A DNA stretch of 21,678 nt from a virus, in IMG/VR virus record IMGVR_UViG_3300025217_000002, positions 1 to 21,678 of that record; one strand, 5' to 3'. This document shows, in pieces, positions 2,497 through 14,380 of the stretch. Each line of letters begins with the position of its first letter. Position 1 is the stretch's first letter. The notes beneath the pieces are model-generated. The model was given only the letters and a program-made list of their open reading frames with translations, was not told where the DNA came from and ran no database searches. Made by a program: the position numbers and the translations under genes.

Positions 2497-3576
2497 ATGG
2501 CCGGGGGGCAGGATATCGCCGTCGCGGATATCGCGCAGATGCTGGCGCCGCATGCCGCCGCCGTGTGCCGGCAGGTCTTGCCGGCGGGACGCGAGGAAGG
2601 CGGTTTCTATTGCGTCGGGTCGATCGACGGCGAACCGGGCAGCAGCTTGAAAATCTATCTGCGCGGCGCGCGGCAGGGGCGATGGCGCGACTATGCCGGC
2701 GATGCGCGCGGCGATCTGCTCGAGCTGGTCGCGCAGGCGGCCTATGGCGGCGACAAGAAACCGGCGATCGACTGGTGCAAGGCGTTTCTGCGCATAGCCG
2801 AGCTGACGCCCAAACAGTTCAAGGAAGTGCGGCGCAAGGCGATCGCGTCGGCCGAACGGCAGCAGCGCGAGCAGGCCGAGGCCGACGCCAAGTCGCGCCG
2901 GCAGGCCCGCGCCCTGTGGCTGTCATGCGAGCCGATCGCCCAGACGGCGGGCCAATATTATCTGGAGGCGCGCGGGATCGATTTCGGCCTGCTGGGCCAT
3001 ATCCCCGGCGCGCTGCGCTATGGCCGGGTCTATCATTCGACATTGAAGCGCGAGGCGCCGTGCCTGGTCGCGGCGATCATGCGCGGTGGCCAGCATGTGG
3101 CGACGCACCGCACCTGGATCACGCGCGAGGGCGGCACATGGCGCAGCATGAAGGCGGAGCTGGGCAAGCTCACCAAGATGACGCTGGGCCGATACTATGA
3201 AGCGGGCGGCTATATCCCTTTGTGGAAGGGGCTGAACGGCAAGGGCGAGATACCTGATGGCGCGTTCGAGCCGATCGCCATGGCCGGGCCGGTGCATTGC
3301 GGCGAGGGCATAGAGAATGTGCTGACCATCGCCCAGGTCGCGCGCGGCATCCCCGCCGCGGCTTCGGTGGCGCTGGCCAATCTGCGCCAGCTGCCCTTTC
3401 CGCACATCGTCTGGATCGCCGATCGCGACGCCGCCGACAGCAAGGCCACGGCCCTGCTGGAGAAGAATATCGCCGTGCAGCAGGGGATGGGCAAGCGGAT
3501 GCAATTCATCTGGCCCGATCCCGGCTTCAAGGATGTCAATGACCAGCTGATGGGGAAGAGGATGCGCGATGCGTGA
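2497..3576 (+). CDS. Toprim-domain primase-like replication protein (359 aa)
   Basis: The C-terminal half contains a Toprim fold: a glutamate in CGEGIENVLTI (Glu about 270) and a DRD motif in WIADRDAADS (Asp about 309 and 311), the acidic residues that bind metal in primases and topoisomerases. The N-terminal part (CVGSIDGEPGSSLKIYLRG, then RWRDYAGDARGDLLELV) matches the layout of phage and plasmid primases of the DUF7146/Toprim type, where it precedes a helical linker (residues 105-150). No cysteine zinc-finger is present, so it may lack the usual DNA-recognition domain. The next gene overlaps its end by eight bases, and a replication ATPase follows. It most likely primes phage DNA replication. 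The ATG follows a GAAGGGAT ribosome site. Confidence 0.85.
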   Translation: MAGGQDIAVADIAQMLAPHAAAVCRQVLPAGREEGGFYCVGSIDGEPGSSLKIYLRGARQGRWRDYAGDARGDLLELVAQAAYGGDKKPAIDWCKAFLRIAELTPKQFKEVRRKAIASAERQQREQAEADAKSRRQARALWLSCEPIAQTAGQYYLEARGIDFGLLGHIPGALRYGRVYHSTLKREAPCLVAAIMRGGQHVATHRTWITREGGTWRSMKAELGKLTKMTLGRYYEAGGYIPLWKGLNGKGEIPDGAFEPIAMAGPVHCGEGIENVLTIAQVARGIPAAASVALANLRQLPFPHIVWIADRDAADSKATALLEKNIAVQQGMGKRMQFIWPDPGFKDVNDQLMGKRMRDA

Positions 3577-4378
3577 CAAATTCGAGACCTATGGCCGCGA
3601 GCCGCGCATGCCGCTTTGGGCCAAGTTGTTGGGCGCCACCTATTGGGCCGGCGATGGTTCGGTGCGGACCAAGATCGGCGAAATCGGCTATCGCTATCGC
3701 ACGGTCGCCTGCAAGGCGGTCTATTATGGTGACAGCACGGATGAGGACCGGCCGAGCCTGATGTTGGGATTTGGCCTGTTCACATGGTTCGCGCCGATGC
3801 CACTGTGGACGCGACGTTTCTTTGCGGAGCGCGAGCTGGGCAGGGGCCGGGCGTCCTATGGCTTCAGTTCGTCGGACGATGGCCTGATGTTCTATTGGGG
3901 CCAGCGATCCGCGATCCTCTGGTGGCCGTGGGGCCTGGAGCATATCCGCACGGATTATCTGGGCACTGACATGCGCTGGCATGACGATCGCAGCCATCCC
4001 GAAAATCACTGGGCGCGCAAGCACCCTAATCCGCTGCATCGCTACGTCGGCCCGATTGGCCCTGAAAAGTGGAGCGAGGTCCATCCCTATCGCTACATGC
4101 TGCAGAATGGCACCGTGCAGGAAGTGCAGGCGACCATTACGCGCCGTCGTGCCTTTCATGGGCGCCGCTGGTTCGGGCCGATCCGATTTCGGCGGTTTAT
4201 TCGCTCGATCATGCCCAAGAAGGTCTTTGACAGTATCGACGTGCAGTTCAGCGACGAGGTTGGCGAGCGCGCCGGCAGCTGGAAAGGCGGTACCGTGGGA
4301 TGCAGCTATGACATCCTGCCAGAAGAAAGACCGCGATCCGCGCTGATGCGGATGCAGCGTGACCGTCGTTTTCGCTGA
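3569..4378 (+). CDS. Hypothetical phage protein (269 aa)
   Basis: This unknown protein is strikingly rich in aromatic residues (many Trp, Tyr and Phe; for example LMLGFGLFTWFAPMPLWTRR and ILWWPWGLEHIRTDYLG). It has a basic C-terminal third (RRRAFHGRRWFGPIRFRRF). No clear membrane-spanning helix is present, since charged residues interrupt the aromatic stretches. It overlaps the primase gene by eight bases and is followed within ten bases by the replication ATPase, so it is probably made together with them. Similar aromatic-rich proteins occur beside replication genes in alphaproteobacterial phages, by my recollection, but I know no assigned function. Confidence 0.75.
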   Translation: MRDKFETYGREPRMPLWAKLLGATYWAGDGSVRTKIGEIGYRYRTVACKAVYYGDSTDEDRPSLMLGFGLFTWFAPMPLWTRRFFAERELGRGRASYGFSSSDDGLMFYWGQRSAILWWPWGLEHIRTDYLGTDMRWHDDRSHPENHWARKHPNPLHRYVGPIGPEKWSEVHPYRYMLQNGTVQEVQATITRRRAFHGRRWFGPIRFRRFIRSIMPKKVFDSIDVQFSDEVGERAGSWKGGTVGCSYDILPEERPRSALMRMQRDRRFR

Positions 4379-6343: not shown

Positions 6344-6579
6344 GCGAGCGGAGCGAACTGCGCCTAGTCCATGGCGGTCGCAATCTGGTCGAGCTGCTGG
6401 AAGAGCAGCTGGCCAAGGTGAAGGCGGGCGAGGTCGAGATATTGGTTGTCGCTACGGTCGACACGGACAAGGTGCAGCGGTGGAGCTGGGCCTATGTCGA
6501 CGGGATCGACTTCGCTTGGGCGCGCATGGTCGCGGCCGTGGCAGGCGTGTCGCATGATCTGATGTCGGATGGTATTTAG
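6340..6579 (+). CDS. Hypothetical small protein, end of rightward early operon (79 aa)
   Basis: The gene begins in an ATGA overlap with the ATPase gene. The product (MSERSELRLVHGGRNLVELL...) has an N-terminal helix, a beta-rich centre (VEILVVATVDTD) and an aromatic segment (QRWSWAYVDGIDFAWARMV). It is acidic and has no recognised domain. The frame extends upstream as far as 6304, but that part lies inside the ATPase gene. A GC-rich palindrome directly follows, marking the operon end. Confidence 0.65.
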   Translation: MSERSELRLVHGGRNLVELLEEQLAKVKAGEVEILVVATVDTDKVQRWSWAYVDGIDFAWARMVAAVAGVSHDLMSDGI

Positions 6580-6600
6580 GCGGCGCCGATCGGCGCCGCC
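6579..6600. terminator. Perfect GC-rich palindrome between convergent operons
   Basis: The arms GGCGGCGCC and GGCGCCGCC flank a GATC loop, a 9-bp perfect stem. It overlaps the stop of the rightward operon and lies eight bases from the end of the leftward antirepressor operon. There is no U-tract on either strand, so it may work as a two-way terminator with Rho or as an RNA end stabiliser. Confidence 0.55.
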
Positions 6601-6607
6601 CTCATTG

Positions 6608-6769
6608 TCAATTATCGTTCGACCGCGATTTGAGCGGCACCGGCCGGGCTGGCACGGTGTCGCACATCAGCGCCATGATGTTGCGCTTGAAGCGGCGCGA
6701 GCTGACCGGGCGATAGAGGCCCGGCGCCGGGCGATGGAAGCGCAGGATATTGTCGTCGCCCATGTTCAT
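6608..6769 (-). CDS. Hypothetical basic small protein downstream of the antirepressor (53 aa)
   Basis: The product reads MNMGDDNILRFHRPAPGLYR and continues with a basic, Arg/Lys-rich second half ending in SRSNDN. The ATG at 6769 overlaps the antirepressor stop as ATGA; a second ATG at 6763 is also possible. The strong positive charge would suit nucleic-acid or protein binding. No family recognised. Confidence 0.55.
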   Translation of the reverse strand: MNMGDDNILRFHRPAPGLYRPVSSRRFKRNIMALMCDTVPARPVPLKSRSNDN

Positions 6770-7491
6770 GCTCCCGTGGCCTGGGCGCCATCAGCGACGA
6801 TGAACACGTTGACGATGCGATCGCCGCGGCGGACCGTGTGCCGGCGGAAGCCCAGCGCGCGCAGCAGCCTGCCGATGCGCAGGCGTGTGGCCAGGTCGAG
6901 ATCGGGCACGCCAATGCCTTCCGCGCATTCCTCGATCGAGAAACCGCTGCGCCCGGTCGCCCAGGCAGCAATGCTGGCGGCGAAGGGATCATCCTCCAAC
7001 TCGGCCGTGGCGTCGGCGATCGCGACGGGCAGGCCGCACTGTGCCCAGACCCGGCGGGCCGTCGCAATACCATAGAGGCGCCGTGCGGCGTTTGTCAGCG
7101 CCACGGCCGCCATGATGCGCGGCGGATCGATATCGGCCGACACCAGCGGCCGGGGCGGCGCGTCATGCAGGATATAACGGCCGGTGCGGCGCAGGGTGGG
7201 CAGCAGCTGCGACGTGATCCATTTCTTGAACCGCCGCGCTTCCGGCTTCCTGCTGCCCAGAACCAGTGAATACATGCCGGATTCCGACACGATGTTTGTC
7301 GTCCGTGTCTGATCGCTACCCTTAATTGAAATGAGGGTAGCTTCGTCATCATCTAGCCGTTTGATCGCATTGGTTACATTGTCGAGATCCAGCGCTGCGC
7401 AAATGTCGGTCGCGACAAACCATGGCTCGTCATCAATCATAATGACGCGAACCTGCTGATCTTCGAAACTGAATGGAATTACTTCGCTCAT
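6766..7491 (-). CDS. Phage antirepressor with BRO-N domain (241 aa)
   Basis: Residues 1-110 are a BRO-N (Bro/antirepressor N-terminal) domain: FEDQQVRVIMIDDEPWFVAT, DICAALDLDNVTNAIKRLD, a TTNIVSESGMYSLVLGSRKP stretch and a basic KKWITSQLLPTLRRTGRY helix. The C-terminal 80 residues (from about 165) look like a small DNA-binding or winged-helix unit (GFSIEECAEGIGVPDLDLAT then RLRIGRLLRALGFRRHTVRR). Antirepressors bind and disable phage repressors, triggering lytic growth. The ATG at 7491 follows an AAGGA site seven bases away; that site is complementary to a loop of the upstream C4-like RNA, so translation is probably blocked in the lysogen. Confidence 0.88.
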   Translation of the reverse strand: MSEVIPFSFEDQQVRVIMIDDEPWFVATDICAALDLDNVTNAIKRLDDDEATLISIKGSDQTRTTNIVSESGMYSLVLGSRKPEARRFKKWITSQLLPTLRRTGRYILHDAPPRPLVSADIDPPRIMAAVALTNAARRLYGIATARRVWAQCGLPVAIADATAELEDDPFAASIAAWATGRSGFSIEECAEGIGVPDLDLATRLRIGRLLRALGFRRHTVRRGDRIVNVFIVADGAQATGA

Positions 7492-7535
7492 GGCCTATTC
7501 CTTGTGAAAGGCCCGGCAACCAAACGCCAAATTGG

Positions 7536-7610
7536 TGGCCGGACGTGCCCGGATTGGCGTACCGCCCACAAGGTAGCGGCGACCCGAAGGTCTCCAGACA
7601 CGCCCGACCA
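7536..7610 (-). ncRNA. c4: C4-type antisense RNA controlling the antirepressor
   Basis: On the minus strand, 7610-7594 pairs with 7552-7536 to make a 17-bp stem (G-U pairs included). It encloses a GACC-UUCG-GGUC hairpin (7592-7581) and a CCGC/GCGG hairpin (7579-7562), followed by the GGUACGCCAAUCC segment I associate with the C4 RNA family of phages P1 and P7. Two unpaired segments match the leader downstream: CCUUGUG (7573-7567) is complementary to CACAAGG (7506-7500), which contains the antirepressor Shine-Dalgarno, and ACGCCAA (7560-7554) to UUGGCGU (7530-7524). In P1, C4 is cut from the same leader transcript and blocks icd/ant expression through two such pairings. Here the block would fall directly on the antirepressor ribosome site. 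Confidence 0.82.
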
Positions 7611-7704
7611 TAAAGAACCGCGCCTAGACGGGCGGTCCGGCGCGGGTGCGCCTTGTGTAGAGCGTGACGCCAATCACGTGCCGGGGATTTACCCGGCGAG
7701 CGAA

Positions 7705-7733
7705 TTTATGGCAGGCAAGGCGATCACGATCAA
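7705..7733 (-). promoter_or_regulatory. Candidate promoter for C4 RNA and antirepressor
   Basis: On the minus strand TTGATC (7733-7728) and CATAAA (7710-7705) are separated by exactly 17 bases. Transcription would start near 7698, upstream of both the target-like segment (7674-7651) and C4. Each box matches the consensus at four of six positions, so this is only a reasonable candidate. It overlaps the start region of the divergent small membrane protein gene. Confidence 0.4.
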
Positions 7734-7743
7734 GGGTGTGCTG

Positions 7744-8043
7744 ATGTTCAAGGTTGCATTCAACATCGTCCTTTGCGCGGCGCTGGCTGCGATAGGCACG
7801 TTCCAATACCTGATTTGGAAAGAGGTGAGCGCGGCAAAGCGCGCGGCACTTTACGGCATTGTCAAGGCCGAAGAGGCGGGTCATTCCGCTGGCCTCGCAA
7901 GCGATCGAGCAGGAATAGCGTGCCGTGCGTCGCTGGAGGCGATCGGGAAACTGCCGAAAGGTGCTACGATCTGGGAGACGCCGACGGTTGAAAGCTCGAT
8001 GAAAAGCGGGTTCTGTGGCGGCGCGGATCTCGATAATCTTTGA
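7744..8043 (+). CDS. Small membrane-anchored protein, probable moron (99 aa)
   Basis: The product begins MFKVAFNIVLCAALAAIGTF, one hydrophobic segment (residues 4-24) that would act as signal anchor or uncleaved signal. A hydrophilic, Ala/Glu-rich helical domain follows, with a cysteine pair region (ACRAS near 59 and FCGG near 90) that could form a disulfide if the domain is periplasmic. The ATG at 7744 is chosen for its AAGGG site eight bases upstream; an in-frame ATG at 7708 is the alternative. It is the only plus-strand gene among minus-strand genes from 9717 to 6608, which suggests a separately acquired cargo gene expressed on its own. I recognise no family. Confidence 0.6.
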   Translation: MFKVAFNIVLCAALAAIGTFQYLIWKEVSAAKRAALYGIVKAEEAGHSAGLASDRAGIACRASLEAIGKLPKGATIWETPTVESSMKSGFCGGADLDNL

Positions 8044-8060
8044 TGGCGTGGTGAGGTGCA

Positions 8061-8759
8061 TCAAGCAGCCTTCCCGAAGATTTCTGCCATCGCCTGCGCG
8101 CCCCACTGGTCGGCCATGGCGGCCGCCATGCCGGGCCAGAAGCGCGAGCGGTTGGCGGCGCGGGCTTCGCCGCCCTTGCCCCAACCCGTATGCCGGTGGA
8201 TGCCCGACCAGCGCTTGTGCGCGGCCGTGCCCGGTGCCGGCGGATCGAGGCGGCGGGTTTCCATGAGCGGATCGAGGTTCTTGAGCCAGAAACAGGTGCG
8301 CTTGAAGGCGCGGTGGCCGAACTGCCAGGGCTGGACGCTTTGCGCCGGCTCGACATAGCCGCGGATGCGTTTCTTGCCATGGCGGTGCATGATCGGGTTT
8401 TCGATCGCGATGCGGTCGATCGGCGCGTGCAGGAAGGTGGCGAACAGCTCGGCCGCCTCGTCCAGTTCAGCCCACATGTCGGGCAAGGTGCGGCCAGGCG
8501 GCGGGGCGCTGAGCCAGCGCACGCCGCTGTTGCAAAGGCGGGTGCAGGGCGGATGCGCGACGATCAGCATATCCCAGCCCCAGCTGATGATATCGCGGGC
8601 GTCGCCGGTGATGTGGCGGTTGCTGCGCTTCTCGTCCGGTTTCAGGTCGCAGGACCAGGCATCGAAGCCGCGCGCCAGGAAGGCGTCGCGCACGGTGCCG
8701 GAACATTCGCAGGCGATCAGGACGCGGGGCGAGGCGTCGAGCAGGTCGAGCTGGATCAT
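8061..8759 (-). CDS. Phage DNA cytosine methyltransferase-like protein (232 aa)
   Basis: A Rossmann-type S-adenosylmethionine motif lies at residues 13-27 (VLIACECSGTVRDAF). A catalytic-loop-like HPPC motif is at 69-72 (IVAHPPCTRLCNSGVRWL) and an ENP motif at 120-122 (IAIENPIMHRHGKKRIRGY). The order and the later QPWQFGHRAFKRTCFWLKNL segment match the compact phage proteins annotated as DNA cytosine methyltransferases, which are shorter than classical C5 enzymes and lack a large target-recognition domain. It probably modifies phage DNA, perhaps as protection from host restriction. The ATG at 8759 is chosen because it overlaps the upstream stop as ATGA. It is the last gene of a five-gene minus operon. 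Confidence 0.8.
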   Translation of the reverse strand: MIQLDLLDASPRVLIACECSGTVRDAFLARGFDAWSCDLKPDEKRSNRHITGDARDIISWGWDMLIVAHPPCTRLCNSGVRWLSAPPPGRTLPDMWAELDEAAELFATFLHAPIDRIAIENPIMHRHGKKRIRGYVEPAQSVQPWQFGHRAFKRTCFWLKNLDPLMETRRLDPPAPGTAAHKRWSGIHRHTGWGKGGEARAANRSRFWPGMAAAMADQWGAQAMAEIFGKAA

Positions 8760-13714: not shown

Positions 13715-14380
13715 ATGGAAGAGAAGATCAAGACATTGAGCGATGGCACGCTGGACGAGATGCGCCAGGCCCTGGGTGATCTGGATGGTGCGGAGCTGGC
13801 GGCGCTGAAAGCGGCCGAGCAGGCGAAGGGCAACAAGGCGCGCGCAGGGGCGCTGGAAATGATTGACAGCGCGCTGGCCGATCTGGAACCCGCCGACGCG
13901 CCCGACGCGCCCGACGCGCCCGACGCGCCCGACGCGCCCGACGCGCCCGACGCGCCCGACGCGCCCGACGCGCCCGCGGCCAAGCCGCAGCGCATCGTGT
14001 TGCTGATCCCGGCGTCGCCATCCGAGCGGGCCGAGCTGATCGCGCGGCTGGAAGATGCGCTGGCCGCTGGCGATAGCGTGGCGATCGTCTTCGCCGATGC
14101 GGATGGCGAGCTGTTGCCGGTGCCGCCGATCGAGGCGCGTCCGAGCGATTTCCAGCGTTTCGCCGGCAGCGTTGCGCGCCTGGTCTACAAGCCGTCGATC
14201 GAGCTGGGCATGGCCCTGCCGACGGTAGCCGTGCGCCAGGCCTTCCTGCTGGTCGAGCCGAAGATGGCGGATGACGGGCCGACGGCGGTGGCCGTATGCC
14301 GCCTGACCGCCGACCTGCATGCCGGCGGCGGCCGCAAGGCCGAGATACCGGACGGGAACCTGCTTTTCAGCCTGGGCTGA
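13715..14380 (+). CDS. Hypothetical structural-module protein with nine DAP repeats (221 aa)
   Basis: An N-terminal helical region (residues 1-60, MEEKIKTLSDGTLDEMRQAL) is joined by nine tandem Asp-Ala-Pro triplets (residues 61-87) to a C-terminal alpha/beta domain of about 130 residues (QRIVLLIPASPSERAELIAR onwards). The DAP linker is encoded by nine identical 9-bp units and should be stiff and extended. An AAAGGACGG site precedes the ATG. It lies between terminase and portal genes, so it is made with head proteins, but no family is recognised. The two-domain tethered layout suggests an adaptor. Confidence 0.75.
   Translation: MEEKIKTLSDGTLDEMRQALGDLDGAELAALKAAEQAKGNKARAGALEMIDSALADLEPADAPDAPDAPDAPDAPDAPDAPDAPDAPAAKPQRIVLLIPASPSERAELIARLEDALAAGDSVAIVFADADGELLPVPPIEARPSDFQRFAGSVARLVYKPSIELGMALPTVAVRQAFLLVEPKMADDGPTAVAVCRLTADLHAGGGRKAEIPDGNLLFSLG
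13895..13975 (+). repeat. Nine perfect tandem copies of GACGCGCCC
   Basis: Nine identical 9-bp units run without interruption in frame and encode (DAP)9. Perfect identity at the DNA level, not only at the protein level, implies recent slippage or expansion, so copy number may vary between isolates without breaking the frame. Confidence 0.97.

Follow-up and report, generated by a model that had tools for sequence, protein, structure and literature searches.

C4 RNAs form a family of RNAs of about 77 nt that arise by RNase P processing of a longer transcript at a GG site. The original papers on the P1 system are reportedly those of Citron, Schuster and co-workers. In the P1 record (NC_005856), the elements follow each other as a1, b1, c4, a2, b2, icd and ant1. 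The C4 RNA is annotated at 48343-48419, begins with GGT and matched the C4 model with 68.8 bits, and a1 and b1 are annotated as putative target sites. The Rfam family c4-a1b1 matches both P1 and Gifsy-1; in Gifsy-1 it overlaps isrK, and a C4 match (69.0 bits) adjoins them. The C4 model of the Gifsy-1 locus (L018, 33513-34333) lies between isrK and anrP, in a stretch that passages of PMC4825925 call orf45/STnc1160; in the main text of that paper, the terms "C4 RNA" and "C4 antisense" were not found.

Passages of a 2010 survey list C4 and c4-a1b1 as conserved motifs (PMC2864571), and relatives of C4 in Acinetobacter are apparently processed at the GG site, according to passages of PMC5320573. 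The CI RNA of satellite phage P4 with its seqA and seqC sites, likened here by description only, is presented in parts of PMC4825925 as an antisense RNA that is cut from a leader and pairs with upstream and downstream sites, and parts of PMC4825925 and PMC10111431 state that it acts by early transcription termination. Relatives of P4 CI and of seqA are among the RNAs picked up by the C4 and isrK models, according to passages of PMC10111431. The window analysed here, a viral record 21,678 bases long, very probably carries an immunity cassette of the P1/Gifsy-1 C4 type.

Identification of the C4 RNA and its target sites

A sequence-only reading of the window had proposed a C4-type RNA directed against the ribosome site of an antirepressor gene. 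The check with the Rfam C4 model (RF01695) gave a match on the minus strand from 7615 to 7531, covering the full length of the model (1-87 of 87) with 61.2 bits (E 7e-10, cut-off 45). The C4 antisense RNA is placed at 7531-7615 (-) from this match, from the fold and, for its ends, by analogy with P1. The stretch folded with a minimum free energy of -47.5 kcal/mol, and 0 of 200 shuffles were equally stable (z = -4.75). The predicted fold showed the family layout, a long stem around a tetraloop hairpin and the b' hairpin. Both inner hairpins had been described before, but the outer stem contained 18 pairs in the minimum-energy fold instead of the 17 given earlier. The match has a GC content of 65%, which would suit a chance stem in GC-rich DNA. 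The family match, the fold compared with shuffles, the covariation and the shuffles of the target sites all contradict such a stem, and its probability is negligible. GGT was found at 7609, the same start as in the C4 RNA of P1, and by comparison with the P1 record the mature RNA is predicted to extend from about 7609 to 7534; its 76 nt would be near the length of about 75 nt estimated before. A blastn search of the leader against the annotated phages searched gave no DNA match for the C4 region.

The b' loop CCUUGUG (7567-7573, -) and the a' linker ACGCCAA (7554-7560, -) were assigned from the sequence, the fold and the comparison of loci. Read on the minus strand, b' (7573-7567) is complementary to CACAAGG at 7506-7500, and a' (7560-7554) to UUGGCGU at 7530-7524, all segments being present as the sequence-only reading had described them. 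The downstream sites are a2 (7524-7530, -), an exact match, and b2 (7500-7506, -), which contains the Shine-Dalgarno sequence of the gene ant and is supported by an exact match and by covariation. The predicted duplex energies were -11.7 and -10.3 kcal/mol for b'-b2 and a'-a2, respectively. The earlier inventory of sites was right about a2 and b2 but had missed a second copy of each upstream of C4, together with a leader containing a terminator-like hairpin. The upstream copies are a1 (UUGGCGU, 7667-7673, -), an exact match complementary to a', and b1 (CACAAGG, 7651-7657, -), an exact match complementary to b' that is also supported by the comparison of own with exchanged upstream regions. Of 20,000 dinucleotide-preserving shuffles, 3 contained the downstream site pair, 4 the upstream one and 0 all four sites. 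CACAAGG by itself is not rare in the window, with 3 matches, and as many were found in 30 of 100 shuffles. The family match, the fold and the complementarity of a' and b' to a2 and b2 in front of ant therefore confirm the earlier observation.

The antirepressor gene and other genes of the window

The gene ant (6766-7491, -) encodes a putative antirepressor of 241 aa, identified by Pfam and PHROG matches. Its product contains a Bro-N domain (80.9 bits, Pfam cut-off 25.6), which places it among the Bro-N-type proteins, and it matched PHROG 130, anti-repressor Ant, with 165.3 bits, so that the identity given to it earlier held. The start codon is the ATG at 7491-7489, and 8 nt separate it from CACAAGG. 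As ant lies immediately behind b2 with no icd-like gene in between, the operon is not of the P1 c4-icd-ant type, and the second pairing would fall on the ribosome site of ant itself, as proposed.

The ant product would inactivate the phage repressor, for which two divergent HTH regulators (1679-2161, -, and 2134-2493, +) form a candidate pair. Peptidase_S24 was found in neither of the two records searched, that of the window and that of the near relative L002, both of which are possibly fragments; this is compatible with the earlier suggestion of a repressor that lacks a self-cleaving domain. The earlier assignment to an alphaproteobacterial phage found some backing, as proteins of the window weakly matched phages of Pelagibacter and Rhizobium and plasmids of Phaeobacter, Leisingera and Azospirillum. 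Proteins of the window also matched phages and plasmids of other proteobacteria, however, and such an origin is only hinted at. The product of 3569-4378 (+), next to a primase-like gene, matched Pfam Acb3 (CBASS inhibitor) with 131.8 bits and is possibly an anti-CBASS gene product of the phage. An open reading frame at 13715-14380 (+) contains a run of Ala-Pro-Asp repeats.

Comparison with other IMG/VR loci

At least 120 loci in IMG/VR matched a sequence pattern for the cassette, and they are to be taken as a sample. Together with the window they made 121 rows, or 74 without repeats and with 72 distinct loops; after L121, which has no gene start, was dropped, 73 loci with 71 distinct loops remained, the window counted. 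The pattern is strict and missed L002, P1 and Gifsy-1, although C4 is present in all three. These loci (L019-L138) show the same cassette as the window, with loop sequences that vary and sites that match them. For the 71 loops among the matches listed, the longest exact complement of b' within 32 nt before the own first gene averaged 7.55 nt, compared with 4.23 nt at the start sites of others, and 0 of 5,000 permutations of b' and start sites reached 7.55 (largest 4.73). Among the matches listed, 61 loops had a b2 match of at least 6 nt, and for 49 of these its 3' end was located 7 to 10 nt upstream of the ATG; the best match was 5 nt or shorter in 10 of the 71 loops. Since the pattern fixes GCCAA and leaves the b' loop free, only two a' bases could vary in the a' test, in which the exact own a2 was present at 61 of 71 loci among the matches listed and in 0.17% of the leaders of loci with a different a'; no exact a2 was present at the other 10.

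The upstream tests covered 69 of the 71 loci. An exact own a1 was present in 68 of the 69 loci with enough upstream sequence, compared with 0.65% in others, and a1 was missing in 2 of the 71, L050 and L066, the latter with 42 nt of upstream sequence (all among the matches listed). The own b1 match measured 6.88 nt and the exchanged one 4.87 nt, and 5,000 permutations gave at most 5.33 (69 loci among the matches listed). This agreement of a1, b1, a2 and b2 with the own rather than another C4 strongly supports the upstream and the downstream pair alike as real targets of C4 in these loci.

Genes following C4

The direct arrangement, in which C4 covers the ribosome site of an antirepressor without icd, had been presented as a shortened and novel form of the circuit. 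This novelty did not hold up, because an antirepressor-type Pfam domain was found in 27 of 73 first genes among the matches listed, the window included, and Gifsy-1 has the same arrangement; on these gene orders the arrangement is not new. The first-gene domains among the matches listed were Bro-N, P22_AR_N, Rha, KilA-N and ORF6N, with 12, 6, 6, 2 and 2 matches, respectively; the 28 domain matches correspond to 27 genes, as L071 has two. Thirty of the 73 first genes were also scanned singly, and the sixth P22_AR_N member lies outside those 30. For L105, the rule selected a 26-aa frame, and a 260-aa frame was used for the domain count. Single PHROG anti-repressor families matched up to 19 of the 73 first genes, in counts not split by member and excluded from the 27. 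The other 46 of the 73 first genes gave no antirepressor-type Pfam match among the matches listed; set against the window, L019-L138 had such a domain in 26 of 72 first genes and lacked it in 46. Among the matches listed, 40 of the 73 first genes were shorter than 120 aa, and 7 domain matches of the 45 second genes were antirepressor-type. In the relatives, C4 thus faces antirepressors of several families. Conversely, among 10 viral contigs that encode a relative of the window's antirepressor, L002 was the only one with a C4 match, so that the presence of C4 does not follow from membership in this antirepressor family; among genome contigs, relatives of the antirepressor were found at 4 loci, and the strict C4 pattern was absent from all four.

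A short frame through C4, like orf45 of Gifsy-1, could instead couple translation to ant. The window has such a frame, with 38 codons from 7611 and a stop that begins 6 nt before ant. However, ATGG stands at the C4 stem in 54 of the 71 loci, and in these the frame extends to the start of the following gene 36 times, the other two frames 32 and 40 times (among the matches listed). These counts give no sign of selection on the frame, and coupling of this kind was rejected as very improbable.

The leader upstream of C4

A possible -10 element of a leader promoter, ATAAAT (7704-7709, -), aligns with the conserved TAT-CT box of the relatives in a leader model termed R1. As a promoter scan of 6500-8200 gave one site, at 7098-7069, and none at the leader, this element is put forward as a candidate. 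It is followed by hairpin 1 (7680-7697, -), predicted from the fold and with pairs that covary in the alignment of 46 relatives. Hairpin 2 (7663-7678, -), with a1 in its loop, was taken from the consensus structure of the 46 relatives, the window left out, and from the R1 alignment; it is absent from the window's own minimum-energy fold. A predicted fold further contains a terminator-like hairpin at 7615-7638 (-) with a short U tail (UUCUUU region), and a terminator pattern scan of 6500-8200 listed 0 sites.

The leader matched isrK (RF01394) with 26.2 bits (E 0.00085), which is below the cut-off of 50 and leaves it outside that family, and Rfam c4-a1b1 (RF03163) had no match in the window at E values up to 10. 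Model R1 rests on the leaders of 46 other loci and excludes the window; 68 other loci were available, and 22 look-alikes or odd ones were dropped by eye. R1 scored 65.6, 63.4 and 43.1 bits (E 2.9e-10 for the last) on P1, Gifsy-1 and the window, respectively, and all 9 control antirepressor loci without a C4 match scored 14.1 bits or less. Judged by this model and the isrK match, the upstream stretch of the window is a c4-a1b1/IsrK-like leader.

The near relative L002, from a 41-kb contig, encodes an antirepressor 99% identical to that of the window, and its leader is almost unchanged. Over the stretch from hairpin 1 to the ATG of ant, three bases differ, namely a compensated change of one C-G pair of hairpin 1 to U-A and a change of the tetraloop from UUCG to UACG. 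Upstream of about 7716 the alignment showed no clear similarity between L002 and the window, the frames differ and the start of similarity is abrupt; this position, near the candidate leader promoter, is a possible mosaic boundary. The C4 cassette would behave as if it were an exchangeable module.

Possible roles of a1 and b1

The upstream sites also fit a mechanism in which C4 acts mainly by attenuation, as P4 CI does at seqA, so that pairing with a1/b1 promotes termination before C4 and ant. Passages of PMC4825925 and PMC10111431 provide the P4 precedent. In counts inflated by related loci, 64 of 69 leaders among the matches listed, the window included, had a strong stem between a1 and C4 with a T tract at its end, compared with 9.1% of dinucleotide shuffles (69 leaders, 30 shuffles each). 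A second stem at or near b1 was sought in 71 leaders (the 69, P1 and Gifsy-1), of which L043 and L054 have no T tract and 69 were scored; among the matches listed it was present in 64 of these, including P1, Gifsy-1 and the window. Its mean score was 13.7 and that of b1-side shuffles 6.3, with 7.7 as the largest of 200 shuffle means (leaders among the matches listed), and in 44 of the 69 it held at least 2 b1 bases and at least 3 bases of the 5' arm of the terminator. When heads and tails of 67 leaders among the matches listed were exchanged, the doubtful L049 and L107 having been removed by hand, own combinations scored 13.7 and exchanged ones 10.0, and 2,000 permutations gave at most 11.67. 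The leaders of L085 and L105 have a competing hairpin arm of AGGAGA/TCTCCT and GGAGA/TCTCC, respectively, where GGCGG/CCGCC is frequent, and we propose this arm as a natural variant of such a switch.

In folds that are equilibrium and not co-transcriptional, 30 of 69 leaders gained more than 0.1 in predicted termination when b1 was blocked and 1 showed a decrease, but in 38 the change was 0.1 or less (among the matches listed). For the window and for Gifsy-1, predicted termination was 1.00 whether b1 was free or blocked, and for P1 it was 0.99 versus 1.00; for the relative L128 it was 0.03 with b1 free and 1.00 with b1 blocked. In the window, moreover, the terminator stem pairs with a segment that spares the b1 hairpin, and the U tail is short. 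The window thus retains the b1 hairpin and the terminator-like stem, yet no switching is predicted for it, and attenuation as the main mode of action is rather unlikely. For C4 phages generally, we tentatively consider, at fairly low probability, that the a1/b1 leader is a three-segment C4-sensing switch, in which C4 bound at b1 would free the terminator from a competing hairpin with the 3' end of b1. Such a switch is suggested by the relatives but not predicted for the window. If it exists, C4 would secure ant at two levels, through an end to transcription and through a hidden ribosome site, and would limit its own supply.

Alternatively, the a1/b1 leader could be set free as a small RNA of the IsrK kind, which would titrate C4 and turn ant on. 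The IsrK match of the window (E 0.00085) and the overlap of c4-a1b1 with isrK beside C4 in Gifsy-1 agree with this, as does the increase of about 140-fold in anrP translation with IsrK in trans, given in passages of PMC4825925. In the same paper, however, activation is attributed to a refolding of the orf45-anrP mRNA, and the growth arrest caused by IsrK became more pronounced, rather than being relieved, when orf45 (STnc1160) was co-expressed; in addition, the window's match is under the Rfam cut-off. Release of such an RNA is conceivable, though we lean against it.

Proposed mechanism and comparison with known systems

The family match, the predicted structure, the four sites, the covariation of loops and sites and the gene order were computed here, and from them we infer transcription, processing, a translational block, an effect on lysogeny and a role of a1/b1. 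In the favoured C4 immunity cassette, an upstream promoter would give a transcript with the a1/b1 leader, then C4 and then ant, from which C4 would be excised. The exposed a' would pair with a2 and b' with b2, hiding the Shine-Dalgarno sequence of ant, so that little antirepressor would be made and the lysogen would stay repressed. The cutting of C4 and the block of ant translation through a2/b2 are transferred from P1, with sequence and covariation pointing to them here. The a1/b1 copies may bind C4 as well, either as a decoy that caps C4 or as an aid in stopping transcription before C4 and ant, and both readings fit. Titration of C4 is a possible induction switch, as had been suggested.

The immunity layout of P1, with both sets of C4 sites, recurs in the window, a phage sequence whose C4 region had no DNA counterpart in the annotated phages searched. 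The comparative set supplies natural pairs of C4 and target that differ in specificity, and with it the role of a1/b1, putative sites in the P1 annotation, becomes directly testable.

The window shares with P1 the order a1, b1, c4, a2, b2 and gene start; in P1, however, icd (222 nt) comes first and ant1 follows, whereas ant of the window is located directly after b2. Gifsy-1 resembles the window in that a 7-nt complement of the C4 loop abuts the Shine-Dalgarno sequence of the antirepressor-like gene STM2616 and a2 is present. The likeness of STM2616 to ant comes from its annotation, that of a conserved phage protein resembling an antirepressor. Gifsy-1 differs from the window in its loop sequences and in its longer T tract, TTTTTT compared with TTCTTT.
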